A DNA stretch of 52,559 bases, taken from a virus. Position 1 is the stretch's first letter, and the number at the start of each line of letters is the position of its first letter. The stretch lies in IMG/VR virus record IMGVR_UViG_3300035162_002861, positions 1 to 52,559 of that record. One strand, written 5' to 3'. The notes beneath the pieces are model-generated. The model was given only the letters and a program-made list of their open reading frames with translations, did not search any database and was not told the DNA's origin. A program made the translations under genes and the position numbers. This document shows, piece by piece, positions 2-22,251 of the stretch.

Positions 2-844
2 TTTACAAATACTGCTGTTGCAGGACATGTAGAATATGAAGATATTGAAAAAGAACGTACACCATATGTAAATTGTCCTGCTGTAGACCATGGATGGATT
101 TGGAAAATTCCTACACAGTCACGCATGGGCAGTGGCATGGTATTCAATAGAGATATTACTGACGTTGATACTGCTAAACAATATTTTAGCGATCATTGGG
201 ATGGAAGAATCAAACCAGAAGATATGAAAGTTATTAACTGGAACCCGTACTATAGTAAAAACTTTTGGGAAAAGAATGTTGTTTCAATTGGTCTAAGTGG
301 CGGATTTATTGAGCCGTTAGAGAGTACAGGATTAGCAAGTATGACAACAGGTGTTCAAGAACTTGCAAAAATGATACCCCAGCAATGGTATGATGACAAG
401 AGAATTAGTGCTTACAATAATTATATGATGGATTGGTATGATGATGCTGTTGATTTTATTAACAGTCATTATGCTGATACTGAATGGGATACACCTTTTT
501 GGAATTTTGTAAAAGAAACACATGTAAAATCAGACAAACATAAATTTTATGAACGTTGGTTAAAGGATCCTAAAAGAAGTTTTTACTCTAGAGTAGATTC
601 AGTTACACTATTTCATCCACCTAATTGGCAACTTTGGTTAATACAAATGGGATATCCAACACACTCTGACTTATCAAGGATACCAAAATTAGATCTAGAA
701 GCTCAACAACAAGAGTTTATTAAACAAGAATACCTAAGACATATAGTTAGTATGTCACACTCTGATGCAATTGAAACTACTAACTTAGGTGTTGACTGGT
801 TCTCAAAAGCTATGAGTCGTACAGATAGAGACACAATGATATGA
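2..844 (+). CDS. Flavin-dependent (tryptophan-type) halogenase, 5' end missing
   Basis: The reading frame is open from base 2, so the window starts inside this gene; the ATG at 125 is internal. About 280 C-terminal residues are present. Two family signatures are visible. GWIWKIP matches the WxWxIP motif that separates flavin-dependent halogenases from flavin monooxygenases. FIEPLESTG carries the catalytic Glu (Glu346 in PrnA), followed by Ser as in PrnA. Family members use FADH2, O2 and halide to make HOCl or HOBr, which a catalytic Lys delivers to an electron-rich substrate. That Lys and the N-terminal FAD GxGxxG motif would lie left of the window. The stop overlaps the next halogenase start as ATGA (841-844), so the two are translationally coupled. 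The substrate is unknown. The marine viral halogenase VirX1 (cyanophage Syn10) iodinates varied substrates, so tryptophan need not be the target. Confidence 0.9.
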   Translation, partial: FTNTAVAGHVEYEDIEKERTPYVNCPAVDHGWIWKIPTQSRMGSGMVFNRDITDVDTAKQYFSDHWDGRIKPEDMKVINWNPYYSKNFWEKNVVSIGLSGGFIEPLESTGLASMTTGVQELAKMIPQQWYDDKRISAYNNYMMDWYDDAVDFINSHYADTEWDTPFWNFVKETHVKSDKHKFYERWLKDPKRSFYSRVDSVTLFHPPNWQLWLIQMGYPTHSDLSRIPKLDLEAQQQEFIKQEYLRHIVSMSHSDAIETTNLGVDWFSKAMSRTDRDTMI

Positions 845-2322
845 AAATAGTTATTGTAGGTGGTGGTACAGCCGGTTGGCTTGCGGCACTTTTAATTAGT
901 AAAATTAAGCCAGAACATACAGTTACTTGTATTGAAAGTACTAAAGTTGGAGTAGTTGGAGTAGGCGAAAGCACTACTGGTGCTCTTACAACTATTATAC
1001 AAAATGAAATGTGGGACCTTGGTTGTAATGAACAAGACTTTATTAAAGAGTGTGATGCTACAATTAAGTTAGGCATCAAACATATAGGCTGGAATGAAGA
1101 TCCTAGTAAGTTTTATATTGGTCCTATTGATGGCACTCCTACTAGTAATGACCATGGTGATATTGTTTTTCAACATGCTTTAGGCTTTAGAGATCAAGAT
1201 TTACTACACATTGCAACAGAACTTGGTTATAAAATACATCACAATAAAAATAGCCTTGTACAAGTTAACGGCAATCATGCATATCATATGGATGCACATC
1301 TTGCAGGGCAATATTTCAAAAAAGTTGCTACACATGCTGAACATATTGATAGTGAAGTAGAGCATGTACAACTTGATAGTGAAACAGGTTTTGTTACTTC
1401 AGTAAAATTAAGTAATGGCAAGACAGTAGAAGGTGACATGTTTATTGATGCTACTGGATTTAATAGAATATTAATTAATGCAGTTGGCGGCAAATGGAAA
1501 AGTTACAAGGATAATTTACCTGTAAACAGTGCATTACCGTTTCATTTACCATATGAAGATGATGAAGTTATTCAGCCAGTAACTAATGCCTGGGCACAAA
1601 ATAATGGTTGGTGTTGGCAAATACCTACAAAGCACAGGCGCGGTTGTGGCTATGTATTCTGTGATGATTTTGTTACTCCTGATCAAGCACATGCAGAACT
1701 TGAACAAACAATTGGACGTAAAGTTGACCCAATTAGGCATATTAAATTTGATAGTGGTAGACAAGAAAAACTTTGGATTAAGAACGTATTATCAATTGGC
1801 CTAGCTGGAGCGTTTGCAGAACCATTAGAGGCAACAAGTATTCATACAACAATAATGCAAATAAAACATTTTGTTTTTGGTTGCTTAGGAGCAACTAAAG
1901 AAGAGACCTGTAACATTGGAACTGTAGATGATTATAATAAAAAGAATGCTCATTTATACGATACAATGAAGGACTTTTTAGTAGCACATTATACATGTGG
2001 GCGTAAAGATACAGAATTTTGGAAGTATATTAACAGCGGTGCAACAGCTACTGACTTTGTAAAGTCTATGCACGAAGTTTGTAAACACAGAGTACCTAAT
2101 GCAACATTATTCCCAAGACCAGAGGGAGGAGCGGGCTGGCCGTTGTGGAGTTATGTACTTGCAGGTACAGGCAAATTAACATCTGAAGTTGCCCAAAAAG
2201 AATTAAATTTTAATAACGATGTACAAATTAGTGACGGTGCATATCGTTATCATGTTGAAACTTTTGATCAACGTATTCAAAATTTACCAGACAACACACA
2301 ATACATAAAGGGTATGAAATGA
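841..2322 (+). CDS. Flavin-dependent (tryptophan-type) halogenase
   Basis: This 493-residue protein is full family length (about 500-540). It opens with the FAD-binding motif VGGGTAGW. K76 in DATIKLGIK fits the catalytic Lys79 of PrnA. W257-C-W259-Q-I261-P262 is the WxWxIP signature. FAEPLEATS keeps the catalytic Glu, with Ala replacing the following Ser. All residues needed for chemistry are therefore present, and an active FADH2-dependent halogenase is likely. No flavin reductase is seen in the window, so reduced flavin would come from the host or another phage region. It overlaps the genes on both sides by ATGA (841-844 and 2319-2322), placing it in one unit with the first halogenase and hldE. 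It is only distantly similar to the third halogenase at 14705-16162. The substrate cannot be inferred. Confidence 0.93.
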   Translation: MKIVIVGGGTAGWLAALLISKIKPEHTVTCIESTKVGVVGVGESTTGALTTIIQNEMWDLGCNEQDFIKECDATIKLGIKHIGWNEDPSKFYIGPIDGTPTSNDHGDIVFQHALGFRDQDLLHIATELGYKIHHNKNSLVQVNGNHAYHMDAHLAGQYFKKVATHAEHIDSEVEHVQLDSETGFVTSVKLSNGKTVEGDMFIDATGFNRILINAVGGKWKSYKDNLPVNSALPFHLPYEDDEVIQPVTNAWAQNNGWCWQIPTKHRRGCGYVFCDDFVTPDQAHAELEQTIGRKVDPIRHIKFDSGRQEKLWIKNVLSIGLAGAFAEPLEATSIHTTIMQIKHFVFGCLGATKEETCNIGTVDDYNKKNAHLYDTMKDFLVAHYTCGRKDTEFWKYINSGATATDFVKSMHEVCKHRVPNATLFPRPEGGAGWPLWSYVLAGTGKLTSEVAQKELNFNNDVQISDGAYRYHVETFDQRIQNLPDNTQYIKGMK

Positions 2323-3467
2323 AAGTTTTAGTACTTGGCGATGTAATAATCGACAAATATATCTACGGAACATCAACACGTATTAGCCCTGAAGCACCTG
2401 TACCTGTTATAACTTATATTGAAGAAAAAGAAACAAGAGGTGGCGCAGGACTTGTATACGAAAATTTAAAAAGTTTGGGTGTTGACGTTGATATGTTTGA
2501 AACGCCTGGGCAGATTAGTGTAAAAACAAGAATAATCTGTGACGGACATTACATTACACGTATTGATGATGACGCACAAGCTGACAGTACTGCTGTACTC
2601 CAACAAGTGTTAGCAACAAATTTTTCTCAGTATGAATATGTTGTACTAAGTGACTACAACAAGGGTGTACTAGACGAAGCACGAGATATCATAAAACATA
2701 TTAATACGTTTGGTTGTAAGATAATTGTTGATCCTAAGGAAAATTTTTGGTATTATGAAAATGCTTGGTTAGTAAAACCAAACTACAGCGAATTTGAATC
2801 TTTAGAATTTGATAGTTGGTACGGTAACATTATTACTACTAATGCAGGCGATGAAGTTATTGCTACGATTGATGGTAAAAAATATGAAATACCGGTAGAC
2901 AATGTTGAAGTATCTGATGTTACAGGTGCTGGAGATTGTTTCTTAGCAGGGTTTGTATATGCACTTACACAAGGGTATGATTATGGAAAGTCATTAAAAC
3001 TTGCAGTACGTGGATCAACAGAAAGTGTAAAACATTCTGGTACATATATTCTTAAAAAAGACGACTTAGAAGATGTAGTTGTATGGACAAACGGAGTGTT
3101 TGATATACTGCATATAGGTCATTTAAAGCTACTTAGACACGCACACAGCTTAGGAAATAGGCTTATAGTGGGTATTAACAGCGATGCAAGTGTCAAGCGT
3201 TTAAAAGGTGATTTAAGACCCATTAACGATGAGACCACCCGCAAGGAAGTGCTCTTAGAGCTTGGTTTTGTAGATGATGTCATTATATTTGATGAAGATA
3301 CTCCTTTGGAAGCAATGACCAAATTAGAGCCAGATATTATAGTAAAAGGTGGCGATTATACATTTGATACTGTAGTTGGAAATCACTTAGCTAAAGTTAT
3401 TATATTTCCTACAGTTGAAGGACATAGTACAACAAGCACAATTAAAAAGATTGACAGCAACAATTAA
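2319..3467 (+). CDS. hldE: Bifunctional heptose-7-P kinase / heptose-1-P adenylyltransferase (HldE)
   Basis: Two fused domains are clear. Residues 1 to about 245 are a PfkB/ribokinase-type kinase: N-terminal VLVLGDVIIDKYIYG, the GGAG sugar-binding region, LSDYNKGVL, VDPKENFW, and the anion-hole/base motif DVTGAGDCF. Residues about 250-382 are a nucleotidyltransferase with NGVFDILHIGH (HxGH), VGINSDASVKRLKGD and VKGGDY, all close to E. coli HldE. The first domain phosphorylates D-glycero-beta-D-manno-heptose 7-phosphate at O1. The second makes ADP-heptose after GmhB removes the 7-phosphate. At 382 residues it is shorter than E. coli HldE (477). The loss is in the kinase half, where the lid and linker region after GGAG is compressed. 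The start overlaps the halogenase stop. Its 3' end contains the -35 box of the next promoter. Confidence 0.93.
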   Translation: MKVLVLGDVIIDKYIYGTSTRISPEAPVPVITYIEEKETRGGAGLVYENLKSLGVDVDMFETPGQISVKTRIICDGHYITRIDDDAQADSTAVLQQVLATNFSQYEYVVLSDYNKGVLDEARDIIKHINTFGCKIIVDPKENFWYYENAWLVKPNYSEFESLEFDSWYGNIITTNAGDEVIATIDGKKYEIPVDNVEVSDVTGAGDCFLAGFVYALTQGYDYGKSLKLAVRGSTESVKHSGTYILKKDDLEDVVVWTNGVFDILHIGHLKLLRHAHSLGNRLIVGINSDASVKRLKGDLRPINDETTRKEVLLELGFVDDVIIFDEDTPLEAMTKLEPDIIVKGGDYTFDTVVGNHLAKVIIFPTVEGHSTTSTIKKIDSNN

Positions 3468-3479: not shown

Positions 3480-3496
3480 AGTAAAAAGAGGTAGAA

Positions 3497-4327
3497 ATGA
3501 AAGTATTAGTAACAGGACATAAAGGATTTATTGGTAGTTATATTGCTAATTATCTAACAGAAAAAGGTCACGAAGTTGAAGGCTTTGAATGGGTTGAACA
3601 TGTAGTGCCAGACGTATCAGCATACGATTGGGTAATACATTGTGGTGCAATATCAGATACTACTGAAAGAGATATAGATAAAGTTTGGGCTCATAATTAT
3701 GAATTTACATTACGATTAATGCAAGTTTGCGAAAATTATAATACTAATATTCAGCTTGTAAGTACTTCTGCTGTTTATGGTAACAACACAAGTTTTAAAG
3801 AAACAGATCCTGTTTATCCACAAACTCCTTATGCATGGAGTAAATTTCTTATTGATAAGTTTTTAAAAGAAAATGGATACGAAAACTTTGGTATGCTTGT
3901 ACAAAACTTTAGATACTTCAATGTATATGGTCCTGGAGAAGGGCATAAAGGTGATCAAATGAGTTTGGTTAGCAAGTTCCAACAGCAAGCCGCACACAAT
4001 GGTGTAATTAAATTATTTGAAGGTAGTGACAAATATCAAAGAGATTGTGTAAGTGTACATGATGTTGCAGTAGTCCATGAAAAGATGATGCACGAAACAG
4101 ATGCATGTGGATTATATAACTTAGGAACAGGCAAAACAAACAACGTTGAAGAAGTTGCTAAAATTATTGCTAAAAAGTATGATGCAAAAATTGAATATAT
4201 TCCAATGCCTACTCATTTAAAAAGTCAATATCAAGAATACACTTGTGCAGATAATGCAAAACTACATAATGCTATAGCAATAAGACACTGGCACACAATC
4301 GAGGAGTATATTAATGCAACCAACTAG
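3497..4327 (+). CDS. hldD: ADP-L-glycero-D-manno-heptose 6-epimerase (HldD-like)
   Basis: This is a 276-residue short-chain dehydrogenase/epimerase with an NAD(P)-binding GHKGFIGSYIA (GxxGxxG) and the catalytic pair in TPYAWSK (YxxxK). Segments typical of HldD rather than of generic sugar epimerases include FRYFNVYGPGEGHKG, KLFEGSDKYQRD, LYNLGTGKTN and IEYIPMP. HldD converts ADP-D-glycero-D-manno-heptose to ADP-L-glycero-D-manno-heptose, the last step before transfer to LPS core. E. coli HldD is about 310 residues; this copy is slightly shortened. It has its own sigma70-like promoter, and its 3' end overlaps the cupin gene by 14 bases. With HldE beside it and GmhB at 13277, it makes a near-complete pathway. 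Confidence 0.9.
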   Translation: MKVLVTGHKGFIGSYIANYLTEKGHEVEGFEWVEHVVPDVSAYDWVIHCGAISDTTERDIDKVWAHNYEFTLRLMQVCENYNTNIQLVSTSAVYGNNTSFKETDPVYPQTPYAWSKFLIDKFLKENGYENFGMLVQNFRYFNVYGPGEGHKGDQMSLVSKFQQQAAHNGVIKLFEGSDKYQRDCVSVHDVAVVHEKMMHETDACGLYNLGTGKTNNVEEVAKIIAKKYDAKIEYIPMPTHLKSQYQEYTCADNAKLHNAIAIRHWHTIEEYINATN

Positions 4328-4727
4328 ACTAGAAGGTAAAGTAGATAAAGGCTGGGGATACGAATTAATCTGGGCAACTAACGAACACTATTGTGGTAAA
4401 ATTATGGTGTTTGAAAAGGTTGGATCTAAGTTTAGTATGCACTTCCATAAAGAAAAAGATGAATCATGGTTTGTTAATAACGGAAGATTTTTATTAAACT
4501 ATGTTGATACAACTACTGCTGAATTTAAATCATTAGAACTTACTGACGGTATGACTTGGAGAAATCCTCCACTAATGCCTCATCAATTAGTTTGTATGGA
4601 ACCTGGAAGTAGTATTACTGAAGTAAGTACCCCTGATAGTGTTGAAGACAACTATCGAATTGCACCTGGCGATAGTCAAAAGCCAAAGCCTCAATTAGAA
4701 GAAACTAAGGACGAAGCAGGCTCTTAA
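4314..4727 (+). CDS. Small cupin-fold protein
   Basis: This 137-residue single-domain cupin has motif 1 as H43-F-H45-KEKDE-SWFV, giving metal ligands H43, H45 and probably E50, and a motif-2 His in PPLMPHQL (H90). Such small cupins act as sugar isomerases, epimerases or dioxygenases, or only bind sugars; the motif spacing resembles the cupin half of type II phosphomannose isomerases. A role in nucleotide-sugar metabolism is suggested by co-transcription with hldD, but this is inference. The start is supported by GAGGAG at 4301-4306, seven bases upstream. The stop overlaps the stop of the convergent minus-strand gene at TTAA (4724-4727). Confidence 0.8.
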   Translation: MQPTRLEGKVDKGWGYELIWATNEHYCGKIMVFEKVGSKFSMHFHKEKDESWFVNNGRFLLNYVDTTTAEFKSLELTDGMTWRNPPLMPHQLVCMEPGSSITEVSTPDSVEDNYRIAPGDSQKPKPQLEETKDEAGS

Positions 4728-4738
4728 GCCTGTGCTTC
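4713..4738. terminator. Hairpin centred on two convergent stop codons
   Basis: GAAGC and AGGCT (4713-4722) pair with AGCCT (4727-4731) and GCTTC (4734-4738), leaving a CTTA loop and a two-base bulge at 4732-4733. The loop and inner stem contain both stop codons of the converging genes. No strong T-run follows on either strand, so it is a possible bidirectional transcription barrier or mRNA 3'-end stabiliser, not a textbook intrinsic terminator. Confidence 0.4.
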
Positions 4739-7700
4739 ACCCCATTTAATAATAATATTAGCGTTTACTGCCGCACCTGACGTTTTATATACGTTTAGTG
4801 CAAGCACGTCTGGACCATTTGGGAAAGTACCTCTACCACCTAGTGTAGTATTTGTAAGTTCTTTCAAGTCTTTTAGATCCAATGTAGATCTTTCTCCAGG
4901 TTGTGCAATAAATGAGAACACAGTTTCACCTGGCTGTGCAAATGGTGGTTGACTAAACTCAAAGTTAATTAAATCACCTGGGCTAACTGTACCATTGTAT
5001 GCATTGTTAAACGTAACCTTATAGTATTCAAGAGTACCAAATAGTAATGGTCCTTCAATATTCGAAACACTTGACGAAGCTGGAAAAGTAACATCACTTT
5101 GGTTAGTTGGGGCACCACCTGCATCGCCTAATGATGTACCTGGTTTAGCTCCTGCTGAATCCCAAACACTCTTGGTAAAGTATACGAAACTTGAGTTTGC
5201 TTCATTACCACCTTTTTGGAATGTTTGTGTAGCACCGTTACTTGAGTTTGAATTTGAATTACCTGAGAAGTAAACTAGATATCTTCCGTAAATTGTTTGG
5301 TCAACAACCTGTTGAATTGTAGTTCCTGCAGGAAAGTATTCATTTCCTCCTCCGTCAGCATTAACTTGATCACCAGCTTGTAAGTTAGCTGTTTCCCATG
5401 AAGTTTGATCAAAATAAGCATAGCTTCTGTTAGTTCTAAATGACCACCATGGCATTAATTGTGCTGTAGTTGTAACCTGAGCCATTACTGCCGCTGTTGT
5501 ATATGTTGCTGTATCACCACTATTCCAGTTAGTAGAACCACCTGATGCAACCTGTGCAAAACTTGGCTGTCCACCTTGTGCTAGTCCTGACAATCCTGTC
5601 CAACCAATATCATTTGGGTTAAGTGGATAGTTTTGTGGATTAAGAACACCTTCAATAACTATACCGCCGTAAATCTTTGAATCATCTGTTGGATCTTGTC
5701 CATCTGATGTAATCTCTAAACCTTGCATAAGCAACTGAGCTCTGTTTAGTAGTTCTCTATCACCTAAGTCTCCAACAATAGCATTACTAACACTTGGTGC
5801 TAGTCTTAATAAAAACGCTGTCTGTTTAGTTGTACTAATGCTTAGACCTGTTTCTGTGTATGAGAAGATATAACCTCTATCATCATCAAAGCCACCGTCT
5901 GTAATAAACGCTGAACCCCAGTGTGATATAAGTGGAGTAATTGTATTACTAATTAAAATTACACCAGTTCGATTAGCGTGTCCACTTGCTGGACCTGCGT
6001 TGTACTGCCTAGTTGAACCAGCTTGGAAGTTCTGTAGTGAAGTTCCTCTTGTGATGTTTGTAAGTCTTTTTAGTGTGTGATCAATAGTTGTAAAGCTAAT
6101 AATTTCGTTATCAATATACACTGTACCATTGTCTGGAAAGAACTTAGATTCTGTTAATGGAATAAATGTTTGTGTAGCATCAATATCGTCACTAAGTGAA
6201 GTAAATGCTCCTTCGTTTGTAACTTCGTAACGCACAGGTAAGTTACCTGAACGCATAAACGCTTCTGTGTTTACGTTTGAGTTACGCATTCTGTGACAGA
6301 ATACAAAGTTACCGTCTGCACCACGTGCCATCCAGTCAATAAATCCAGCACCATACCAACTGTATTGAATTCCAATCATCTGCATGTACCTAACATCCAT
6401 ATTGTATCCACTTGGTCCTGTGCCGTCCATTCTATCTAAGTTAAATTCTTCTTGTAAAACTTTTTTATCTGTAATTAAGTTAACCTTACATGCCGCAACA
6501 TTGTTAACACCTCTAAAGTCTGGTGTTACTGTTATTTGTGTTTGTGAATCAACGTTTGCAACAACATGTGTCATTCCTTTAATAACAATTCTATCACCAG
6601 CTTTTAATTGGTCTCTAAATCTTGTGTTACTACCAGTAATTAAGTTTGAGTCAACTGTAACTTGTGCGGTACCTGCAATTTGCTTTGTACTTGTACGCTG
6701 TGCAACACTAATGTTAGATCCATCAAACTCCCAATAAATTCCGTTTTGATCATCAAACACTCCTGAACGTACTGTAGCGCCATGCCAACCAACAACTGTT
6801 AGCTGTGCCGCAAATCCTAAGACTGCTGTAGTAGCACCTAGTCTACGTGATGATAAACATCTTAGTGTTCTTTCATCAACAATTTGTGTAACAGTATATT
6901 CGCCGTTAAATCCTGCTGTCTCAACTCCGATAAGTCTAACTTTACCACCAACTTGGGCACCGTGATCGTTATCATCTGTTGTGATAGTAACGATTGCACC
7001 TATGCCTGTACCGTTAGTTGTAACAGTTCTTAAGTCGTAACTTGGAGCAAATAGAGCACCAGTTGTGTACATAATACCTTTACCTGATTGGTATCTGATA
7101 TACTTTTTACTTTGTCTGATTGCTTGAGCACCGTGTTGTGGTCCACCTGTTCCTAACTGTACACCACCATCATATGGTCTGTGAATAAAGAAACTATCTG
7201 GGCGTAAGTAAACGTTACCTTGGATTCTATCCTCAGTACTATCTCCTGTAAATTCAGATATTGAACCTGGAGCTCTTGTATTATATCTAATTTTCTTAGT
7301 TGTTGGAACGTTAATAGCAATAAACGATCCAGCCGCTAGTGTATGATTGTTTGTTCCGCCGTCATCTGAGTTAACATCAACAACAAATGTGTCGCCTGGT
7401 ACAATACCGTGTGCATAAGGCCATGAAACTTCAATAGTCGATAACGCTTCAAAGTTTACACTTGTTGCCGCATCAATAGTAGTTGTTGTAAAGTCTGTTA
7501 ATGTAACACCACTTACAAGATTTAGTCCTCCACCTGGAATACCTGAACCTGTAATACTTGCTGTGCTTAATCCGCCACTACCATCTTTGCCTGTAACAAT
7601 AACTGTTGCATCTTGTGCTGGAGTTGCACCACCTAGTGTATTACCTGGAATAGTAATTATGTTGCCAATTTCATATCCGCTACCACTTGCGTTAATAGCA

Positions 7701-10651: not shown

Positions 10652-10654
10652 TCT

Positions 10655-12705: not shown

Positions 12706-12710
12706 TCCTT

Positions 12711-13840: not shown

Positions 13841-13841
13841 C

Positions 13842-14708: not shown

Positions 14709-16162
14709 ACCAGTCTCCGTAATAACTGAAGCATTAATTTGTGAGGAATAGTTTTTGTTTTATCAAATTCTAATTTGTGCTGTATTGACTGTTCAACATG
14801 ATCTTTTGCACCTTGTGGAATTGATTCGTACTGTTTTAAAATACTATCAGTGTCAAATAATTCTAACCCGTGCATTACTAGTGTATAGTTATATTCGTTA
14901 AACAAAACTTTTTTGGTATGCGTGGTCAAATCGTCAGCAATAGGCATTCTTACTTTCCACATGCGTAAATTTTGATCTAAACTGTCTGGAATTGGTGTTT
15001 CTGATACTGCTTTCCAAAACGGTGTATCTCTTCTTTTAGTAATGTAGTGTAAGGCAATAAAATCTCTAATGTTATCCATAATAGCAGTAACTTCAAGATT
15101 ATATCTGTTAGTTGTTTCTTTATTATAATTTATAAGACGTTGTGCTAATAAAAATGTTTGATTAATGCTACTACCAATGCTACTAGCTTCTAAAGGCTCT
15201 ACAAAACTTTGACTTAATCCAATTGCACATACGTTACCTATCCAAGCCTTGTCTAATGTACCTGGATCAAATTTAATATGCTTTGCTACTTCGACTCCGT
15301 AACCTAAGTATTTTTCAACTTCAGTATGTGCTTGTTCGGCTGTAATAAAATCGCTATCAAAAATATAACCATTGCCTGTACGTCCTTGAACAGGAATACG
15401 AAACATCCAACCAGCGTCCATTGCTTTTGCTAATGTCCAAATTGGAATTTGATCCTCTTCAGCTGTAGGAAATACAATAGCTTCTTTCATTTTAAGATAC
15501 TTACTATAACTTTGCCATTCGGCACCTACTGCGTTAATTAGTAAACGACTAAATCCTGTACAGTCTATATAGAAGTCGTATTCATATACTTGTTTTTCAC
15601 CTTGTATAGTTGACACATTGTTGTTTTCTGATACACTTACATTGATAATTTCATCGTCGATAACATTGATGCCTTTGTCTATTGCAAAGTTTGTTAGAAA
15701 GTCATTTAATTTAGCAGTATTAAAATGATATTGTGCTACACCAGTGTCATTTGGGCGTTCATCCATAAACTTGTTAAATGGTGTTTCGTTATTCCAAAGG
15801 TATTCGCCGGTAAGTTCTCTCGCACTTACTTTTTCGCCAATTAGTTTAGCATATGCAATTGGAGCTCCTAGTTGTTCAGAAACATAAGGCTCATGGACAC
15901 TTTGTAAGTACGGAGTTTCACTCCAGTCTTCAAACATAATACCAGATTTAAAACTAGCATCACATTCGTTAATAAGGTGGCCTGTTTGAATGCCAACAAA
16001 ATCCATAAATGTAGACCAATGTTCGGTAGATCCTTCACCAACACCAATAGTTCCAATCTTACTAGAACGTATTACGTCAATTTGGAAGTTTGGGAAACTT
16101 GTTTTTAAAATTAATGCTGACACAAAGCCTGCTGTGCCGCCACCTACTACTGCTATTTTCAT
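14705..16162 (-). CDS. Flavin-dependent halogenase, WxFxIP variant
   Basis: This 485-residue protein has N-terminal FAD motif VGGGTAGF, K72 in DASFKSGIMFEDW at the catalytic Lys position, and FVEPLEASS carrying the catalytic Glu. The signature is W252-M-F254-R-I256-P257, so the second Trp of WxWxIP is Phe. The overall architecture is otherwise complete and an active enzyme is likely. It lies between an oxygenase (16170) and the SGNH gene, overlapping the latter by four bases. It is diverged from the two halogenases at the left end, so the phage keeps at least three distinct enzymes, probably with different substrates. RBS-like AGGAAT precedes the ATG. Confidence 0.9.
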   Translation of the reverse strand: MKIAVVGGGTAGFVSALILKTSFPNFQIDVIRSSKIGTIGVGEGSTEHWSTFMDFVGIQTGHLINECDASFKSGIMFEDWSETPYLQSVHEPYVSEQLGAPIAYAKLIGEKVSARELTGEYLWNNETPFNKFMDERPNDTGVAQYHFNTAKLNDFLTNFAIDKGINVIDDEIINVSVSENNNVSTIQGEKQVYEYDFYIDCTGFSRLLINAVGAEWQSYSKYLKMKEAIVFPTAEEDQIPIWTLAKAMDAGWMFRIPVQGRTGNGYIFDSDFITAEQAHTEVEKYLGYGVEVAKHIKFDPGTLDKAWIGNVCAIGLSQSFVEPLEASSIGSSINQTFLLAQRLINYNKETTNRYNLEVTAIMDNIRDFIALHYITKRRDTPFWKAVSETPIPDSLDQNLRMWKVRMPIADDLTTHTKKVLFNEYNYTLVMHGLELFDTDSILKQYESIPQGAKDHVEQSIQHKLEFDKTKTIPHKLMLQLLRRLV

Positions 16163-16169
16163 TTTATTC

Positions 16170-16751
16170 CTAGTGGTCTAAAGTATACCATCCGCTTATA
16201 ATGTACTTAACACCTTTGTAGATAGGATTACCCCGATGTGGATGTGTAAACGATGTAGGAAAGATAGCTAGTCTGCCTGGAGCTGGTTTAATCTTGTGTC
16301 CTTGGTATAAGAACTCTGTTTCGCCGCCTTCTTCAACTCCATTTAAGTACAATGTATATGCTAACACTCGAGTACTTGTCGGTACATCTGCATTTTCACA
16401 GTGCCATGCATGATATCCCTGATGTGGTTTTGTTTTTTGAACACTCATGCCCTTTGCTGTATGCTGGAATAGTAATCCAAGGCTTTCGTATTTTGTTTTA
16501 TACTTTTCTAAATAAGTTTTATTAAGAGTTTCAAAAAAGAATTTACATAAGTCTTCATCTGCATGATAATGACTATTATGATTAGCCCAGTCCATATATA
16601 TGCGTTCGTCTTGATTACGGTCAATACCTTGCTGTTGTATTGCTGTCATTTGCATTGAAGATAGCTCTTCAAACCTTTTAATTATTTGTTTACAATAATC
16701 AATTGGGTATACGTTGTCGTATACTTCAACTCCGTCAAAATTATCATCCAT
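16170..16751 (-). CDS. 2OG-Fe(II) oxygenase, prolyl-4-hydroxylase-like
   Basis: This 193-residue protein has a clear double-stranded beta-helix core. Iron ligands are H117-C-E119 in YHAWHCEN and H172 in THPHRGNP, and K182 in GVKYIISGW is the likely 2-oxoglutarate salt bridge. LYLNGVEEGGETEF and PAPGRLAIFP are typical of the PKHD/P4H group. The motif is HxE rather than the common HxD, a variant also used by clavaminate synthase. Such enzymes hydroxylate prolyl or other residues, or small molecules. The neighbouring halogenase and oxygenases suggest successive oxidation of one substrate, or modification of fibre proteins; neither is shown. GGAG lies just upstream of the start. Confidence 0.85.
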   Translation of the reverse strand: MDDNFDGVEVYDNVYPIDYCKQIIKRFEELSSMQMTAIQQQGIDRNQDERIYMDWANHNSHYHADEDLCKFFFETLNKTYLEKYKTKYESLGLLFQHTAKGMSVQKTKPHQGYHAWHCENADVPTSTRVLAYTLYLNGVEEGGETEFLYQGHKIKPAPGRLAIFPTSFTHPHRGNPIYKGVKYIISGWYTLDH

Positions 16752-16760
16752 ATTAGTCTC

Positions 16761-17480
16761 CTATATAAAAAACTGCTGATTCATTCTGTAGTTATTATTT
16801 ACAAACGTACCTGGTTTAACATATGCAGTATGTAAAACTGCTTGATTATATAATATCATTCTATTAAACGACATTGGAATCATTCCAATCATTTCCCAAT
16901 CATGTGAGCTATCGGTAATATAGCTAGTTACTGGAATTTTACCTTCAACATCCATAGTAACATTAAAGTCATTGTTTACTACATCATCTGTGTAAAAATG
17001 TTTACCGCCAAATTCATAAAAACTTGTGCCTCCAGCAGATTCATTTTCGTCGTTTAGATAAATTGTACTAGCAAGATTCATGCCTGAACGATTATCTTGG
17101 TGTGGAGCAAGTGGTGGCAAGTCTTCAGATTGCATAACATTAATCATAAACGTTGCGTTCATAAAACTTTTTTGCATGTAATCATGCGGCCAATTTAGCA
17201 TCACTTCAGGAAAAAACTCTTTAGCTAGGCTATTATATATAGGAGCCATACCAGATAATTCATAAAATGCATTAATACGTAGTGCAGGATTGCCGCCTCT
17301 AATTCGTCTATTAACAGATGCTGGAATATCTAATGCAAGTTGTCTTACTAGATAAGGATTTTGGTAAAAATTATCAACTACTAATACTCGTACGCCAGCT
17401 TTTCCAAACGTATATACTCTTGTATCTAAATTTTCGTTGATAGCAAATGCTTCTTCTTCGTTAATTGTATTTTTAATCAT
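16761..17480 (-). CDS. DUF6445-like putative 2OG-Fe(II) oxygenase
   Basis: The protein is 239 residues from the ATG at 17480. That start has GGAG seven to eight bases upstream, and the further in-frame ATG at 17510 is inside the preceding gene. Sequence features are VRVLVVDNFYQNPYLVRQLAL near the N-terminus, H127-Q-D129 in APHQDNRSG, GGTSFYEF, and a distal H217 in AVLHTAY, consistent with an Fe(II) HxD...H site in a cupin/2OG fold. To my knowledge DUF6445 genes often neighbour tryptophan-halogenase genes in marine bacteria, and here one lies two genes from a halogenase. It overlaps the upstream oxygenase by eight bases. The reaction is unknown. Confidence 0.7.
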   Translation of the reverse strand: MIKNTINEEEAFAINENLDTRVYTFGKAGVRVLVVDNFYQNPYLVRQLALDIPASVNRRIRGGNPALRINAFYELSGMAPIYNSLAKEFFPEVMLNWPHDYMQKSFMNATFMINVMQSEDLPPLAPHQDNRSGMNLASTIYLNDENESAGGTSFYEFGGKHFYTDDVVNNDFNVTMDVEGKIPVTSYITDSSHDWEMIGMIPMSFNRMILYNQAVLHTAYVKPGTFVNNNYRMNQQFFI

Positions 17481-18072
17481 CTTGTTTCTCCGATAGCACA
17501 AAATTTGCACTAATTGTTGACCTTAATTGGTCGCTAGTATTATTAGATACGTAATGCTCTAAGTTACTAGGAAAAAATACAATATCACCTTCTTCTAAAG
17601 GAGGTGTTACTCTGTTATTGTATCTGAATGGTTGTGTAGTTAATGATGGAAGACCTGACTGATGTAAAAAATCATATGCTTTGTTGTAGAATACAAAGTT
17701 ACCACTGTCTTTAGGAGTATGCATCATATATGCACAACTAATCTGTGCTACGCCTACATGATTATGTACTTCTTGGTAAGACCCAGGTTTGTATTTGTTA
17801 AGCCAACACTCAATCCTATAGTCTAATGTTAAGTCTATATTAAAATTTTCAAGATATTCGTTTAAACCTGTAATTGCTGATCTAATAAAAGTTTTAAATG
17901 GTAAGTTTGAAGCCTCAGGGTTACCATAAGTAGTGTCTACAGGACTATACCAAGAAGGGACTCTACTAAAATACTCTTCTTTATCAAGTATGTCAGCAAA
18001 GTCTTGTTGTACTTGCTCATGCTCCGGTAATTTAATCTTATATACTGGAATTGAATATAAGTTTACTAGCAT
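17473..18072 (-). CDS. 2OG-Fe(II) oxygenase, TIGR02466-like
   Basis: This 199-residue protein has a conserved core: WLNKYKPGSYQEVHNH with H103-N-H105, then a strand like SCAYMMHTPKDSGNFVFY, EGDIVFFPSNLEHYV with H173, and R184 in LRSTISANF as the 2-oxoglutarate-binding Arg. This matches the putative 2OG-Fe(II) oxygenase family common in marine phages and bacteria. Its start shares one base with the carbamoyltransferase stop (18072), so the two are coupled. Substrate unknown. Confidence 0.78.
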   Translation of the reverse strand: MLVNLYSIPVYKIKLPEHEQVQQDFADILDKEEYFSRVPSWYSPVDTTYGNPEASNLPFKTFIRSAITGLNEYLENFNIDLTLDYRIECWLNKYKPGSYQEVHNHVGVAQISCAYMMHTPKDSGNFVFYNKAYDFLHQSGLPSLTTQPFRYNNRVTPPLEEGDIVFFPSNLEHYVSNNTSDQLRSTISANFVLSEKQDD

Positions 18073-19901
18073 TAGTTTTTCATTTCAATTAGTTTGCCGT
18101 ACTCAGGTAAGTAACAATATTCCATTTCACTGTTATATAGTGTACGTACAGCATCATCCAAAGTTTCAACAAGTGGTTCGCCGCCTAAGTTAAAACTAGT
18201 ATTAAAAATAATTGGAATGCCAGTTTTTTTATGAAACTCTTCAATAAGTTCATAGTAGTGTTTGTTCTGTTCTTTAGTTACAGTTTGAATTCTACAAGTA
18301 CCATCAACGTGAATAATGCTTGGAATCTTTTCTGCAATACCTTCTTGACAATCCATTGCATACATCATATGCGGAGTTTGTTCTAACCCACGCATATCAA
18401 ACCATTCATGTGCATGTTCTAACATGATACTTCCTGCAAAAGGTCTAAAGTATTCTCTACGTTTTACGTTGTTTACGTAATCTTTGCCATCTTCAAATGT
18501 TGGATCAAACAATATACTTCTATTACCTAATGCACGAGGGCCGTTTTCACTCTTACCTTGGAATAATGTTACAATGTTTTTGTTTCTAATAAGTTCTACA
18601 ACTTTTTCGTTGTCAGAATCAACAATAGAAGCACCATATTTGTTTGCAGTTTCTTCAATTTGGGCATCAGTGTATGTATACTCAAATCCTTCATAAATTG
18701 TTTCTGCATAGTGTCGTACAGTTTTGTCTTTTGTAGTTTGATGGTACACTAACATAGCCGCACCCATTGCAGTACCTGCATCATTACTAACAGGTTCAAC
18801 ATATAACTTAATATTTTCTTTGTTTAGTTTATCAAGATACCAATAGTTTGCAACACAGTTAAGTGCATAGCCGCCACTTAGTACTACATTTTTATTACCT
18901 GACATTTCAACTGCTTTAAAGATAAGGTTTAAAACTTCTTGTTGTGATCCTTCTTGTACTGCATATGCTAAGTCTCTACGGTTTTCTTGTGTAGTTAGGT
19001 CAGTATTACTGTCAACTATGTCTTGTGATGTTTCTAAGTATTCATATTTTGCTTCATTAACTAATGCCGCATTTGGATATGTTGGAATAATAACATTTCT
19101 ATCACTTGTACGCCATTTACTACCATTGGCGTCTGAATAAATTGGAGGAATATTTAAGTTTTTCTTACCATACGGAGCAAGCCCCATTGTTTTACCAGCT
19201 TCAATAGGTTGAAATCCACAATATTGTGTTACTGCTTCGTATGCTTTAACAATACCTGCACTATCATCTAATATAAGTTCATGGAATCCTTCTTCGCCTT
19301 CGCGATCTGATGGAATATACGGAATACGTGTTCCTGGAAACGGTCCATTCCCACCTTGGTGCTTATATAAAGTTTTAAAGTTATCAGGATATGCACAATT
19401 AAAAATACTTTCACATTCCCATGACATATATTCTTCATTAAACACACCCATATTAATGTTCATAGGAATAAATGTTCCTGCTCCGTCAACAATAACACTT
19501 ACTGCTGATTCAAATCCTGAACGATAAAATGCACATGCCGCATGTAGTTTGTGATGTATGTGGCTTAAATCAATAACTTGTCTATGGTTATGTTGACCGT
19601 CTGCTGTATAAGCATTGTCATGTCTATCAATTAATCCTAACTTTCTTGCTAACCCAGTATACATATCACCGCCACTAAAGTCAATTCTGCTTGACTCTGC
19701 TAACGGTTGTGTGTGTGCTACTACAAGATAGTCTAATTTGTCTGTGTACTCAAGGAATTTAATCATTGCGGCAAGAGGTCCACCATCGTATTTTTTACGA
19801 GTTAAACGTTCTTCTTCAATTGAAAATACAATTTCACCATCTTTTAATAATACGGCGCCGCCGTTGTGTCCTCTTGTAATCGCTCCAATCCACTGTGTCA
19901 T
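18072..19901 (-). CDS. O-carbamoyltransferase (NodU/CmcH/TobZ family)
   Basis: The 609-residue length is normal for the family. The N-terminal Kae1/YrdC-like part begins WIGAITRGHNGGAVLL with H12, followed by SIEEERLTRKKYDGG, and contains HIHHKLHAACAFYRSGF. The C-terminal YrdC-like/carbamoyl-transfer part contains GKSENGPRALGNRSIL and FNTSFNLGGEPLV. These enzymes activate carbamoyl phosphate with ATP and transfer the carbamoyl group to a hydroxyl of a sugar or antibiotic. In this operon a glycan hydroxyl is the likely acceptor (inference). The ATG at 19901 is preceded by AAGGAAAA. A gap of 79 bases precedes it, the largest gap inside the enzyme run. Confidence 0.92.
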   Translation of the reverse strand: MTQWIGAITRGHNGGAVLLKDGEIVFSIEEERLTRKKYDGGPLAAMIKFLEYTDKLDYLVVAHTQPLAESSRIDFSGGDMYTGLARKLGLIDRHDNAYTADGQHNHRQVIDLSHIHHKLHAACAFYRSGFESAVSVIVDGAGTFIPMNINMGVFNEEYMSWECESIFNCAYPDNFKTLYKHQGGNGPFPGTRIPYIPSDREGEEGFHELILDDSAGIVKAYEAVTQYCGFQPIEAGKTMGLAPYGKKNLNIPPIYSDANGSKWRTSDRNVIIPTYPNAALVNEAKYEYLETSQDIVDSNTDLTTQENRRDLAYAVQEGSQQEVLNLIFKAVEMSGNKNVVLSGGYALNCVANYWYLDKLNKENIKLYVEPVSNDAGTAMGAAMLVYHQTTKDKTVRHYAETIYEGFEYTYTDAQIEETANKYGASIVDSDNEKVVELIRNKNIVTLFQGKSENGPRALGNRSILFDPTFEDGKDYVNNVKRREYFRPFAGSIMLEHAHEWFDMRGLEQTPHMMYAMDCQEGIAEKIPSIIHVDGTCRIQTVTKEQNKHYYELIEEFHKKTGIPIIFNTSFNLGGEPLVETLDDAVRTLYNSEMEYCYLPEYGKLIEMKN

Positions 19902-19941
19902 ATGTTTTCCTTTTATATTTCTTTATATACTGTATGTAGTT

Positions 19942-19958
19942 GCAATCCCACTGATTGC
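19942..19958 (-). other. Small hairpin in the 79-base gap before the carbamoyltransferase
   Basis: GCAATC (19942-19947) and GATTGC (19953-19958) form a perfect 6-bp stem with a 5-base loop. On the minus strand it is followed by AT-rich sequence including TATATAAAG and the ribosome-binding site. It is not followed by a T-run. It could attenuate or process the long message. No convincing sigma70 promoter was found in the gap. Confidence 0.35.
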
Positions 19959-19980
19959 TGATAAGATGTGAACTTTAACC

Positions 19981-20586
19981 TTAGTTAAGTTCTACATCAT
20001 AAGTAAAATCAACTACAAATACTTTTCTTTCTTCTAATGTAGGGTATACTCCGTGATAAACTTTACCATCCATTACTACTACATCGCCTGCTATGCATTT
20101 TATCATATCACTAACTAGTTCACCTGTTACAGGATTCATAGTAATTGCTTTTAATTTGCCATTTAACGGTGTTAACGTACTCACTGATATTGTGTTTAAA
20201 AACATAACACAAGTCATTATACGTTGGCCTCTATCTTCATGTGTGTGTAATCCTGAAAATGTATTCTCAGGATATGTTAGCCACCAACACTTCTTAAATT
20301 TTACGTTTTTAAATTGAAACTTTTCTATAGATTTTTTAATCCATTCTAAGTATATACCTTGTTGGTCTACATTATACGGATATGAAAAGTCATCATCGTT
20401 ATATTGTATAATTGCACCACCGTAATCTACATGCGACTTTGGTGGACTATCAAATAGTTCTAAAAATTTATTATAGTCTGCATACTTGTCTTTACTAATC
20501 CAATAATCAGGTATTCGGCCATTATAACATAACCAAAAAAAGTCTTTATCGCCTTGATATGCAGTATCTAAAGTTTCTATATCCAT
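19981..20586 (-). CDS. 2OG-Fe(II) oxygenase-like protein (tandem paralogue A)
   Basis: In this 201-residue protein H114-T-H116 in YPENTFSGLHTHED, H178 in MDGKVYHGVYP and R187 in EERKVFVVDF form a complete 2OG-Fe(II) type site, with an HxH or HxHE first motif. It is clearly paralogous to the next gene upstream (20586-21188): both have SHVDYG or RHVDYG near residues 51-60, a Y-P-x-(N/G)-x-x-SGLHxH element, and VxMDGKVxHGxYPxLExR. The two share one base (TAATG) and were probably made by tandem duplication. Substrate unknown; co-expression with GT9 and the carbamoyltransferase suggests a glycan or peptide target. Confidence 0.75.
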   Translation of the reverse strand: MDIETLDTAYQGDKDFFWLCYNGRIPDYWISKDKYADYNKFLELFDSPPKSHVDYGGAIIQYNDDDFSYPYNVDQQGIYLEWIKKSIEKFQFKNVKFKKCWWLTYPENTFSGLHTHEDRGQRIMTCVMFLNTISVSTLTPLNGKLKAITMNPVTGELVSDMIKCIAGDVVVMDGKVYHGVYPTLEERKVFVVDFTYDVELN

Positions 20587-21188
20587 TATATTACACTTTC
20601 ATATTCAAAGTCTACAACAAATACATGTCTATCTTCTAATGCAGGGTAAGAACCATGAAATACTTTACCATCCATAATTACCATTTTGCCTTCAATAGGA
20701 TTATGCGTTAAGTAAGTAATTTCACTGTCTGCTGGTTGAAGTGTAGTTAAACATCCTGCCAACGGATATGCTACACTTGGTTTTGGAGTGTCTAAAAATA
20801 ATACACTAGTAAGTTGTCTACCTGGTTGATGACAGTGTAATCCGCTATATGCACCTGGAGGATATTTTACACCCCATGCTTTTTGAAAGTCTTTTATTCT
20901 AATAGGCAAATTTTGTAATTGAAACTTAATAAAGGACAAGTATTCTTTTATAGGATCAATATCTGTAGGATATTTCATATCTCGTTTGTAATACAATGTT
21001 CCATTGCCATAATCAACATGTCTTTCACTAGATTCGTTAAACAGCTTTAGGAACTTTTTGTACCCAGGATAGTACAAGTCATCTACAACCCATGTATCAA
21101 GTGCTTGTAGCTTCTGTATATCAGGCTCTACCATAGTGGTAATACCACTTAAAAAACTATCAGGTGAAGGAAAGTTAGGACCACTCAT
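20586..21188 (-). CDS. 2OG-Fe(II) oxygenase-like protein (tandem paralogue B)
   Basis: In this 200-residue protein the predicted metal and cosubstrate residues are H118-C-H120 in YSGLHCHQPGRQ, H178 in MDGKVFHGSYP and R187 in LEDRHVFVVDFEY. It differs from paralogue A mainly in its first 55 residues and in the loop at 135-160, where substrate specificity usually lies. It starts one base after the GT9 gene and overlaps paralogue A by one base, so the three genes are a tight translational unit. Confidence 0.75.
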   Translation of the reverse strand: MSGPNFPSPDSFLSGITTMVEPDIQKLQALDTWVVDDLYYPGYKKFLKLFNESSERHVDYGNGTLYYKRDMKYPTDIDPIKEYLSFIKFQLQNLPIRIKDFQKAWGVKYPPGAYSGLHCHQPGRQLTSVLFLDTPKPSVAYPLAGCLTTLQPADSEITYLTHNPIEGKMVIMDGKVFHGSYPALEDRHVFVVDFEYESVI

Positions 21189-21189
21189 T

Positions 21190-22251
21190 TTACTGACCTG
21201 TGTGACCTAAGATTTTTGCTTGTTGTTTATTACCATGTGATGCACCATCTGCATGTACTACTCCATGAGTCGGGCAGACTTCCCCTTGCTGTTCTTGTGG
21301 AACGTGGTTTCCGGTGTAGCTTCTTGGCTTACCCAAACGCTTGCGAGTACTTGTAATAATTTTCTTAAAACTTTCATCATCTAACTCCATAACTTCGTCA
21401 TTAAATCTTTCAATTGAATCTTCCATTGTAAGTCTAATAGGACTAAACTTACGTCTACCTTCTCCTAGATCAATAATATCAAAGTCAGGAGAATTAGGAT
21501 AAGAAATATTAATTGGATATGTACTTCCAATAACACTAGTACATGTTGTCCCTAATGCTTTTGCCATATGTTGTCCTAAACTATCACATCCAATAAAATG
21601 ATCAGCAATTTGAATTACACTTGACCATACTCTTACATCTGGAATCTGCGGAACTGCTACTGGAACTTTAGTATTTTCTTCAATAATTACAGGAAATTCG
21701 CTCATTATAATTACAGCATAGTCATCACGTAAATCTTTACAAATACGTATAACATCATTTAGATGAAAGCTTCTGCTTGTACCGTCAATTACAAAGTCGC
21801 CCATGTTTTCGGCTGTACGACCAAATGGTTGAAACACTACTACTTTGTCTTTACCTGTTACTGCTTTAATTTCTTCAACAACTTTATAACCTTGTACAAG
21901 TTCATGCTTGTTCATATGTATTGTTGGGTCAGGTAAATCTCTAACGCCTTCGTTATTAATTGCAATATCAAATGCTTGTGCTAAACTACACTTTTGATTA
22001 TAGTATTCCCAAACTCTGTATGGTTCTGGTGAATAACAATCTCTGTCTTTAATATAATCTTTAAACAAGTTTTTATGCCAGTTGTCGTATGCTAGTTCAT
22101 GTAGTTGCGGATGACCTTTATAAAAGTCCATTCCTCCTTCACAAACAATAATAAAGTCTTGATCTGTTTTGTAGAGTTTTTCAAACGCTGGAATACTTGC
22201 GACAACTCTGCCTGCTCCACCGTTGATAAAATATGCTTTTTTGCGTTCCAA
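21190..22251 (-). CDS. GT9-like glycosyltransferase (ADP-heptose:LPS heptosyltransferase-like), TTG start
   Basis: The protein is 353 residues. The N-terminal part is a Rossmann-like FINGGAGRVVASIPAFEKL, matching the GT9 acceptor domain that opens with a GD/GA-hVxxhPhhxxL pattern. The C-terminal part has VVFQPFGRT and ADHFIGCDSLGQHMAKALGT followed by IGSTYP, the GT9 donor-binding region (usually ADLFIGxDSGxxHLAAALG...GPTxP). GT9 enzymes transfer heptose from ADP-heptose, which fits HldE, HldD and GmhB nearby. The start codon is TTG (22249-22251) with AGGAG six bases upstream; no ATG lies in range. The last ~40 residues are His/Gln/Gly-rich and look disordered. It is the first gene of the enzyme run, behind a late-type promoter and an upstream terminator. 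Confidence 0.75.
   Translation of the reverse strand: MERKKAYFINGGAGRVVASIPAFEKLYKTDQDFIIVCEGGMDFYKGHPQLHELAYDNWHKNLFKDYIKDRDCYSPEPYRVWEYYNQKCSLAQAFDIAINNEGVRDLPDPTIHMNKHELVQGYKVVEEIKAVTGKDKVVVFQPFGRTAENMGDFVIDGTSRSFHLNDVIRICKDLRDDYAVIIMSEFPVIIEENTKVPVAVPQIPDVRVWSSVIQIADHFIGCDSLGQHMAKALGTTCTSVIGSTYPINISYPNSPDFDIIDLGEGRRKFSPIRLTMEDSIERFNDEVMELDDESFKKIITSTRKRLGKPRSYTGNHVPQEQQGEVCPTHGVVHADGASHGNKQQAKILGHTGQ

Follow-up and report, generated by a model that had tools for sequence, protein, structure and literature searches.

Background

The closest described counterpart of the genes reported here is a cluster of cyanophage S-SSM6a, for which Iyer et al. 2021 (PMC7824862, section 3.4.10) list carbamoyltransferases, a halogenase, 2-oxoglutarate (2OG) oxygenases, a cupin and a HAD protein. 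From it the section predicts a sugar/halogenated-amino-acid system and offers two readings, modification of the host surface first and a diffusible metabolite second. For cyanophages, the tables of Sullivan et al. 2010 (PMC3037559) record prnA, a carbamoyltransferase and several 2OG oxygenases, together with lipopolysaccharide (LPS) genes, including T4-GC 304, 305, 307 and 308, which co-occur in P-SSM2, S-SM2 and S-SSM7. A 2023 review (PMC10452541) counts flavin halogenases in 20 and 2OG oxygenases in 76 of 153 cyanophage genomes and classes them as auxiliary metabolic genes; no substrate is named in its available part. A proposal of virion proteins as the target was not found in the open-licence literature, covered mostly at listing level. 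Here we analyse a homologous locus in a 52,559-base virus record (IMG/VR IMGVR_UViG_3300035162_002861; the window), which is probably a fragment of a larger virus genome.

About fifteen proteins encoded beside the tail-fibre genes of this uncultured marine phage appear equipped for producing an unusual sugar, for its attachment and for its decoration. The gene set is real and conserved, and it is probably functional. A preliminary description of this DNA took the combined set to be undescribed, a claim that the accounts of 2021 and 2010 contradict. The locus is a rearranged, halogenase-richer version of the cyanophage locus of S-SSM7/S-SSM6a, Sf-FS3, S-CAM1 and S-CAM3.

The S-SSM6a proteins named in the 2021 section (AGH07737, 07739, 07740, 07741, 07745, 07747) sit at the homologous locus. 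The window shares with that cluster the carbamoyltransferase, halogenase, 2OG oxygenases and HAD protein, and the cupin through matches below cut-off only. The S-SSM7 locus holds several oxygenase-like genes too, so their number does not distinguish it from the window. It has, however, one halogenase (a second lies elsewhere in S-SSM7), compared with three in the window lineage, and the S-SSM6a/S-SSM7 locus has two carbamoyltransferases, compared with one. The window also has an SGNH protein, its HldE is fused, its genes are ordered differently and its head genes are of the jumbo T4-like kind. T4-GC 304/305 (the HldE halves), 307 (cupin) and 308 (epimerase) of the 2010 tables are counterparts of window positions 2319-4727; in the window, however, HldE is fused and the block stands on the opposite side of the 1975-aa gene, preceded by two halogenase genes. 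The 2021 section leaves unnamed the protein with a glycosyltransferase family 9 (GT9) fold (AGH07736, annotated as hypothetical) and the Cys-rich proteins.

Results

Two tailoring blocks beside tail-fibre genes

Island proteins were annotated by Pfam, PHROGs and NCBIfam profile searches (Table 1). All enzyme classes of the preliminary description were recovered, namely three halogenases, five oxygenase-like proteins, a carbamoyltransferase and an SGNH hydrolase; Pfam and PHROGs identified them apart from the SGNH protein, recognised through a predicted model, and the Pfam scores of ox4 and ox5 lie below cut-off. What had been drawn as a single island (2-22251) is in fact two blocks, split by four structural or unknown genes. 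The plus-strand block (2-4727) holds halA, halB and the HldE-like, HldD-like and cupin genes. The minus-strand block (13277-22251) contains the ten genes expected, from left to right HAD, SGNH, halC, ox1, ox2, ox3, carbamoyltransferase, ox4, ox5 and the phrog_8954 protein; both the HAD gene at 13277 and the GT9-fold gene at 21190 belong to the tailoring set. Between the blocks (4724-13223, minus strand) lie the genes for the 1975-aa structural homologue, a 185-aa protein, the gp9/10-like protein and a 170-aa protein. The junctions of the minus block, thought to be mostly of 0-4 bases, measure +1, -1, +79, -1, -38, +9, +7, -4 and -32, with only four of nine within 4 bases; starts at in-frame ATGs that lie 30 and 33 bases further in would reduce one long overlap and abolish the other. 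The G+C content of the tailoring blocks is 0.346 and 0.348, compared with 0.374 to 0.428 in the remaining parts compared.

The island lies toward the left end of the window, which also carries large fibres and a T4-type capsid gene (48752-49909, PF07068). Genes beyond halA in the near-identical record G006 resemble S-SSM7 gp15, gp13, sheath, head-closure gp4 and terminase weakly to moderately (25-41%), which places the island between the neck/sheath genes and the fibres. The homologous set of S-CAM1, S-CAM3, S-SSM7 and Sf-FS3 likewise lies between fibres and gp13. Such enzymes in a structural region had been called unusual, yet homologues stand beside tail-fibre genes in S-SSM7, Sf-FS3, P-SSM2, S-CAM1 and S-CAM3. 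The cupin and 1975-aa genes are convergent, their stop codons overlapping at 4724-4727.

Table 1. Features of the tailoring blocks and their fibre-side neighbours, in window coordinates.
Feature	Position	Strand	Evidence
halA: flavin-dependent halogenase, C-terminal 280 aa, cut by window edge	2..844	+	PF04820 6.5e-45
halB: flavin-dependent halogenase	841..2322	+	PF04820 5.6e-96
HldE-like kinase + adenylyltransferase (fused)	2319..3467	+	PF00294 + PF01467; best NCBIfam HldE NF008454 274.9 bits, below cut-off of 521
HldD-like NAD-dependent epimerase	3497..4327	+	PF01370; best NCBIfam ADP-heptose 6-epimerase TIGR02197 217.6 bits, below cut-off of 274.6
Cupin protein (WbuC-like, weak)	4314..4727	+	Cupin_2 17.9 bits, TIGR04366 24.1 bits (cut-off 42), both below cut-off
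1975-aa virion structural protein homologue, not an enzyme	4724..10651	-	42% over 81% to S-CAM1 protein
T4 gp9/10-like protein	11227..12705	-	PF07880 8.9e-10
170-aa protein, kept at block end in relatives	12711..13223	-	no Pfam/PHROG match
GmhB-like HAD phosphatase	13277..13873	-	PF13242 5e-11; best NCBIfam GmhB NF006506 134.7 bits, below cut-off of 178
SGNH-fold hydrolase (predicted)	13842..14708	-	predicted model; S9, G41, N44, E226, H228 invariant 22/22
halC: flavin-dependent halogenase	14705..16162	-	PF04820 2.8e-97
ox1: 2OG-Fe(II) oxygenase, HxE...H...K	16170..16751	-	PF13640 3.2e-13; residues invariant 23/23
ox2: DUF6445 oxygenase-like, HxD...H...R	16761..17510	-	PF20043 2.9e-20; residues invariant 37/37
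ox3: 2OG-FeII_Oxy_5 protein, HxH...H...R	17473..18072	-	PF13759 1.8e-15; residues invariant 33/33
NodU/CmcH-type carbamoyltransferase	18072..19901	-	PF16861 6.6e-58, PF02543 4e-25
ox4: 2OG oxygenase-like, HxH...H...R	19981..20586	-	PF13640 18.4 bits (below cut-off); phrog_81 7.3e-8; residues invariant 13/13
ox5: 2OG oxygenase-like, HxH...H...R	20586..21188	-	PF13759 17.5 bits (below cut-off); phrog_81 5.2e-9; residues invariant 20/20
GT9-fold (heptosyltransferase-like) protein	21190..22251	-	phrog_8954 4.1e-142; structure matches
Tail-fibre-assembly-like protein, core partner	22368..23156	-	PF16778 26.9 bits (cut-off 26.6); phrog_9740 (unknown) 7.5e-19; phrog_4912 (tail fiber assembly) 2.4e-7
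Three tandem Cys/Gly-rich paralogues, core partners, candidate substrates	23186-24025, 24038-24874, 24887-25726	-	phrog_4205
Tail fibre with seven CBM5/12 repeats, core partner, candidate substrate	26574..31418	-	PF02839 3.6e-38, 7 stretches; phrog_9851 tail fiber protein

A constant core with variable oxidative additions

Viral contigs were scanned with several queries. Each scan comprises at most the 80 best loci, the IMG/VR loci are not independent (some are near-identical or share a contig), and the iterated oxygenase profiles overlap. With the carbamoyltransferase as query, the best 80 of 472 stretches spanned 100 to 70% best-segment identity. All ten minus-strand genes were in order, judged by eye, in 22 of the 80, down to 86% carbamoyltransferase identity, many others being cut by contig ends; the eight genes other than ox4 and ox5 kept their order down to 79% (locus L081). 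At greater distance ox4, ox5 or, rarely, ox1 may drop out, and the farthest locus (L086, 70%) has a different set. Among 47 loci with 8 kb past the glycosyltransferase (GT)-like gene, halogenase, SGNH, ox2 and ox3 occur in all, ox1 in 44, HAD in 41 (an undercount owing to the 8-kb limit), ox5 in 36 and ox4 in 24; four of these loci seem to be devoid of the carbamoyltransferase through the ORF-start rule, though it was the carbamoyltransferase that located them. The set had been thought to serve one concerted process, with a want of co-occurrence in related phages as the sign to the contrary; its order is kept in relatives.

Loci found with the GT-like gene of S-CAM1 give a different picture from those found with that of S-SSM7. 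In the former scan 51 of 80 loci qualified, with the carbamoyltransferase in all 51, HldE, cupin and epimerase in 34 each, an oxygenase in five and a halogenase in none. In the latter 33 of 80 qualified, with the carbamoyltransferase in 32, HldE and cupin in 33, epimerase in 31, a halogenase in 27 and at least one oxygenase in 30. Scans with Cys-rich queries returned 80 and 26 loci; of those assessable, all (65/65 and 24/24) had the three paralogues together with the GT-like gene, and 57 and 23 had the carbamoyltransferase. Assessable here means that 4.5 kb downstream or the GT-like gene was visible; no locus with 4.5 kb was without that gene, and many contigs are common to the GT scans. In S-CAM1, S-CAM3, S-SSM7 and Sf-FS3 the order is fibre, three Cys-rich genes, GT, carbamoyltransferase, HldE, cupin and epimerase, interrupted by further genes in S-SSM7 and Sf-FS3. 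From the tallies of these scans it follows that the constant core is formed by the fibre, the three Cys/Gly-rich paralogues, the GT9-like gene and the carbamoyltransferase, while halogenases and oxygenases vary.

Examined active-site positions are invariant in all families tested. Median dN/dS was 0.056-0.22 for 14 genes (HAD, SGNH, halC, ox1-5, carbamoyltransferase, GT and four neighbours), values that are rough, dS being saturated in many pairs and paralogues being included for halC and for ox4 (53 pairs for 33 loci with ox4 as best match). Left out were halB (paralogues compared), the cupin (no usable pair) and hldE and the epimerase (one pair each).

Another scan gave 13 loci among 51 (L190, L197, L208 and others) in which a match to the iterated SGNH profile stands between GT and carbamoyltransferase; some of these loci have the fibre genes in reversed orientation.

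Exchange of carbamoyltransferase and GT genes between distant phage groups

The window capsid protein shares 70% identity with its counterpart in Vibrio jumbo phage 2.275.O; with three cyanophages the identity is 33 to 37% (33% for S-SSM7), S-SSM7 and S-CAM1 sharing 65%. Similarly, the terminase of the long relative G001 is 33 to 36% identical to those of four cyanophages, which are 69 to 85% identical among themselves. The carbamoyltransferase runs opposite: that of the window is 68% identical to those of S-SSM7 and Sf-FS3, compared with 49 to 51% between S-SSM7 and P-SSM2, S-CAM1 and S-CAM3. The GT-like protein follows the same pattern (58% between window and S-SSM7 versus 44 to 47% between S-SSM7 and other cyanophages). 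As these similarities run counter to those of capsid and terminase, the carbamoyltransferase and GT genes were exchanged between two distant phage groups. Head, tail, terminase and replication genes of G001 that match S-SSM7 do so at about 25-40%; the exceptions are nrdA, nrdB and an adenylyltransferase-like gene outside the island (56%).

The head genes (48752-52559, and G001) group with jumbo T4-like phages (Vibrio 2.275.O, RaK2/GAP32-like), and the fibres and some tailoring genes are nearest to cyanophages, which makes the virus a mosaic. That the whole virus is a cyanophage was considered and rejected, the best capsid matches being jumbo T4-like phages.

Halogenases and oxygenases

Flavin halogenases of PF04820 share an FAD-binding GxGxxG, a catalytic Lys and Glu, whose roles are known from PrnA, and WxWxIP; the window proteins show these features overall, with deviations. 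HalB contains GGGTAG, ATIKLGI, WCWQIP and EPLEA. K72 and E325 of halC are invariant in 27/27 sequences, and so is its WMFRIP, in which Phe replaces the second Trp. The window part of halA has WIWKIP and EPLES; the complete protein of G006 (505 aa) has YKAGI at 75-79 and GGGSAA where GxGxxG is expected. VirX1 (PDB 6qgm), the viral flavin halogenase of cyanophage Syn10, belongs to the same family (E 1.7e-50 for halB, 1e-42 for halC), but the window halogenases match bacterial Trp halogenases better (the Trp 5-halogenase 2wet at 4.8e-67 for halB; 5lv9 at 1.4e-60). Five of six long records carry three halogenases; the sixth (G003) has one, its contig apparently ending before the second block. NCBIfam matches to LodB, QhpG, GoxB and CmlS were weak, far under cut-offs, and were not used as evidence.

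Concerning the oxygenase-like proteins, ox1 and ox2 fit the 2OG-Fe(II) motif HxD/E...H...R/K, while ox3, ox4 and ox5 carry HxH, which has no carboxylate. In PHROGs the ox2 family is phrog_1644, labelled 'minor coat protein' (1.1e-30).

Carbamoyltransferase, SGNH and HAD proteins

The carbamoyltransferase has both its N- and C-terminal domains (PF16861 195.5 bits, cut-off 27; PF02543 89.4 bits, cut-off 24) and by tblastn is 66% identical to the S-SSM7 and S-SSM6a proteins. Five HAD residues of the GmhB-like protein are invariant in 29/29.

The protein of 13842-14708 had no family match in Pfam, PHROG or NCBIfam, and tblastn against 50,697 phage records gave none either. Its AF2 model (mean pLDDT 76) resembles TesA (VIA Z 8.9, 3.6 A over 162 residues), and nearly all of the 50 matches listed are SGNH hydrolases, with Z up to 8.9; by Foldseek the best E is only 2.4e-3, none reaching 1e-3. 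The signature of SGNH hydrolases is Ser, Gly, Asn and DxxH; here the position three before H228 is Pro225, not Asp, and a Glu stands two before it. An SGNH fold is supported by this predicted model. Solved-structure sequence searches with the SGNH and GT profiles returned chance matches only.

Away from the island, G001 encodes a second SGNH-like protein (83054-83782, L107; 109.9 bits), a second carbamoyltransferase-like protein (232632-234095, L114) and more oxygenase-like proteins, for example at 38194-38793 (L104).

The GT9-fold protein

No Pfam match was obtained for the phrog_8954 protein, PF01075 being absent at E 0.1. With its model (mean pLDDT 70) Foldseek found 3tov at 1.4e-9, and also TibC, WaaF and WaaC; VIA Z was 19.2 for 3tov (GT9), 17.2 for WaaF, 16.3 for WaaC and 16.2 for TibC (4.2 A over 262), and the following Z, excluding plant NDH subunits (16.3-17.1), was 11.7. 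A C-terminal DSxxxH motif (D223, S224, G226, H228) is invariant in 17/17 and corresponds in the alignment to the region around WaaF D269. The GT9 yardstick was waaF and waaC of E. coli K-12, since a GT9 family search of a Limnohabitans genome found none; hhalign with this yardstick aligned the C-terminal motif only, at very low probability. The GT9 fold is thus well supported by the predicted model, GT chemistry is not. TibC puts heptose on adhesins (BAHT family, PMC4358343), but the phage protein falls outside this family and TibC/AAH may serve as an analogy only.

Discussion

Proposed decoration of tail adhesins

At family level the best reading of the product is a carbamoylated, heptose-based one, as the preliminary description proposed, the best NCBIfam models being HldE, epimerase and GmhB, all below cut-off, next to a GT9 fold. 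We tentatively prefer to see the island as the tailoring section, here enlarged, of an adhesion cassette that passes from phage to phage and would decorate tail adhesins, an account that could well be correct. The modification of fibre proteins, mentioned earlier as an alternative, fits the strict linkage with fibre genes. We infer the substrates, the order of the steps, their timing and the virion as target from the families and the linkage. Sedoheptulose-7-phosphate of the host would be converted to ADP-heptose by the HldE-, GmhB- and HldD-like enzymes, the GmhA step possibly being supplied by the host or from elsewhere in the virus genome. The GT9-fold protein may then transfer heptose onto phage adhesion proteins, likeliest the fibres with CBM5/12 repeats or the three paralogues rich in Cys and Gly, and the carbamoyltransferase would carbamoylate the sugar. 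Oxygenases and flavin halogenases may hydroxylate or halogenate either the unit that bears the sugar or Trp, Tyr or Pro side chains of the proteins, while the SGNH protein could trim or swap an acyl group. The variable oxidative enzymes would thereby diversify the adhesive surface of the virion. A fuller version, in which a mobile cassette exchanged between unrelated phage groups brings phage-made activated heptose and places a carbamoylated, oxidised and halogenated glycan (or direct side-chain changes) on fibres or Cys-rich proteins, is unlikely to hold in all its parts.

The principal competitor is modification of the host surface, by which a carbamoylated, oxidised or halogenated heptose on the polysaccharide of the infected cell would block re-adsorption of progeny and superinfection; we consider it possible, if doubtful. 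The same enzyme classes occur in sugar-nucleotide and glycan clusters, the WaaC and WaaF folds match the GT-like protein as well as TibC does, and linkage to fibres would suit the pairing of a receptor with its masking. Yet no flippase, ligase or polymerase is among the Pfam matches of island proteins, and halogenases of the PF04820 family, which act on electron-rich rings, are an odd fit for a plain polysaccharide. Host-surface modification has been proposed in print, in the section and tables cited above (PMC7824862, PMC3037559), and S-SSM7, like P-SSM2, carries an additional sugar cluster. Against it stands the LPS of Synechococcus WH8102 and CC9311, reported to contain neither heptose nor 3-deoxy-D-manno-oct-2-ulosonic acid (PMC4515613). 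Sf-FS3, which carries the core set, lists WH8102 as its host in its record. With an LPS reported to be free of heptose in this host, a heptose pathway there would hardly serve to reproduce the LPS of the host; added to the constancy of the fibre and Cys-rich partners, this favours decoration of virion adhesins.

Several observations weigh against the decoration of adhesins by an exchanged cassette. The linkage to fibres fits receptor modification nearly equally, and the LPS argument covers the cyanophage members only. In P-SSM2 and three single-cell virus contigs GT and carbamoyltransferase are present with Cys-rich matches that are weak, at most two, or absent. Of 397 Cys-rich proteins counted (groups B and C), all have at least 6% Cys and 257 sit in loci where no halogenase was detected, so these proteins are not tied to halogenation; an association of Cys content with halogenases was accordingly rejected. 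At 40% and 42 to 45%, respectively, the epimerase and the 1975-aa protein fall short of the similarity seen for the carbamoyltransferase, which implies piecemeal exchange or, for these two, an older one. In G001 (31914-35399, L104) identities to S-SSM7 reach 61% for nrdB and 67% for nrdA, well above those of the other shared replication genes, so that high similarity, from exchange or slow change, is not restricted to adhesion genes. The T4-type late-promoter signal TATAAATA is not enriched (3 found, 7.6 expected). The HldE-, HldD- and GmhB-like proteins all score under the equivalog cut-offs, though those models are their best, and no GmhA match was found among the scanned window proteins, the remainder of the virus genome lying outside the search. 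Finally, the GT-like protein departs from known enzymes. WaaC employs Asp13 as catalytic base; the phage protein has Arg15 in place of this usual Asp, which WaaF also has at that position; the Arg is invariant in 20/20, in a register read by eye (WaaC GDV...LPA, phage GRV...IPA). In TibC the catalytic residue is Asp110 (PMC4358343), and the N-terminal barrel of TibC (residues 1-97) is missing as well, residue 1 of the model aligning with TibC 91-92, as is its four-Cys iron finger, only C88 and C326 being invariant.

A halogenated, carbamoylated sugar/amino-acid compound that diffuses as an antibiotic, toxin or signal during infection appears improbable. The combination of enzymes is reminiscent of natural-product tailoring, and this prediction was made by Iyer et al. 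2021 from the S-SSM6a locus, homologous to that of the window (PMC7824862, same section). However, it is fibre and Cys-rich genes that constantly accompany the set, and the Pfam matches of the island include no nonribosomal peptide synthetase, polyketide synthase, adenylation enzyme or transporter, nor any methyltransferase family that could correspond to the HemK-like methylase of the core described in that section. Stuffer or decaying acquired genes devoid of present function, raised for cyanophage LPS genes in the 2010 paper (PMC3037559) and in keeping with accessory sets that differ between lineages, are very improbable given invariant active sites, low dN/dS and conserved gene order.

The unvarying association with fibre and Cys-rich genes supplies a specific, testable hypothesis on the substrate, and the core set is present in cyanophages already in culture. 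If adhesins are glycosylated with a sugar absent from host LPS, views of cyanophage adsorption and host range would change, and the locus might be a source of enzymes that halogenate or heptosylate proteins.

Neighbouring genes and host

The first Cys/Gly-rich paralogue matches phrog_4205 at 1.6e-33 and contains 10.8% Cys and 19% Gly. A second fibre (31455-37040) likewise has seven CBM5/12 repeats; the corresponding fibres of S-CAM1, S-CAM3 and S-SSM7 have 3 to 5. Homologues of the 1975-aa protein are labelled virion structural protein in two records, and the position of the cupin gene is homologous in cyanophages.

As to the host, a scan of genome contigs gave seven loci, three at 29-30% and four at 48-66% in metagenome-assembled genomes named Rhodobacteraceae, Actinomycetota, Euryarchaeota and Flavobacteriales; the latter four look like mis-binned phage DNA and so name no host. 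PF00124 was found in none of six long relatives, none of which is known to be complete. No match to psbA, petE, PTOX or CP12 of S-SSM7 (about 192 of 233 kb) was obtained in G001 minus its last 1.8 kb, with ORFs of at least 70 aa, a length below which hli proteins fall, at 1e-8. The search of the window for tRNA genes found none.

Further along the window, a fibre-like protein (37763-41479) has a LamG-like domain (PF13385), and a protein encoded between fibre and capsid genes (47589-48260) matches the E1_FCCH domain (PF16190, 7.6e-12).

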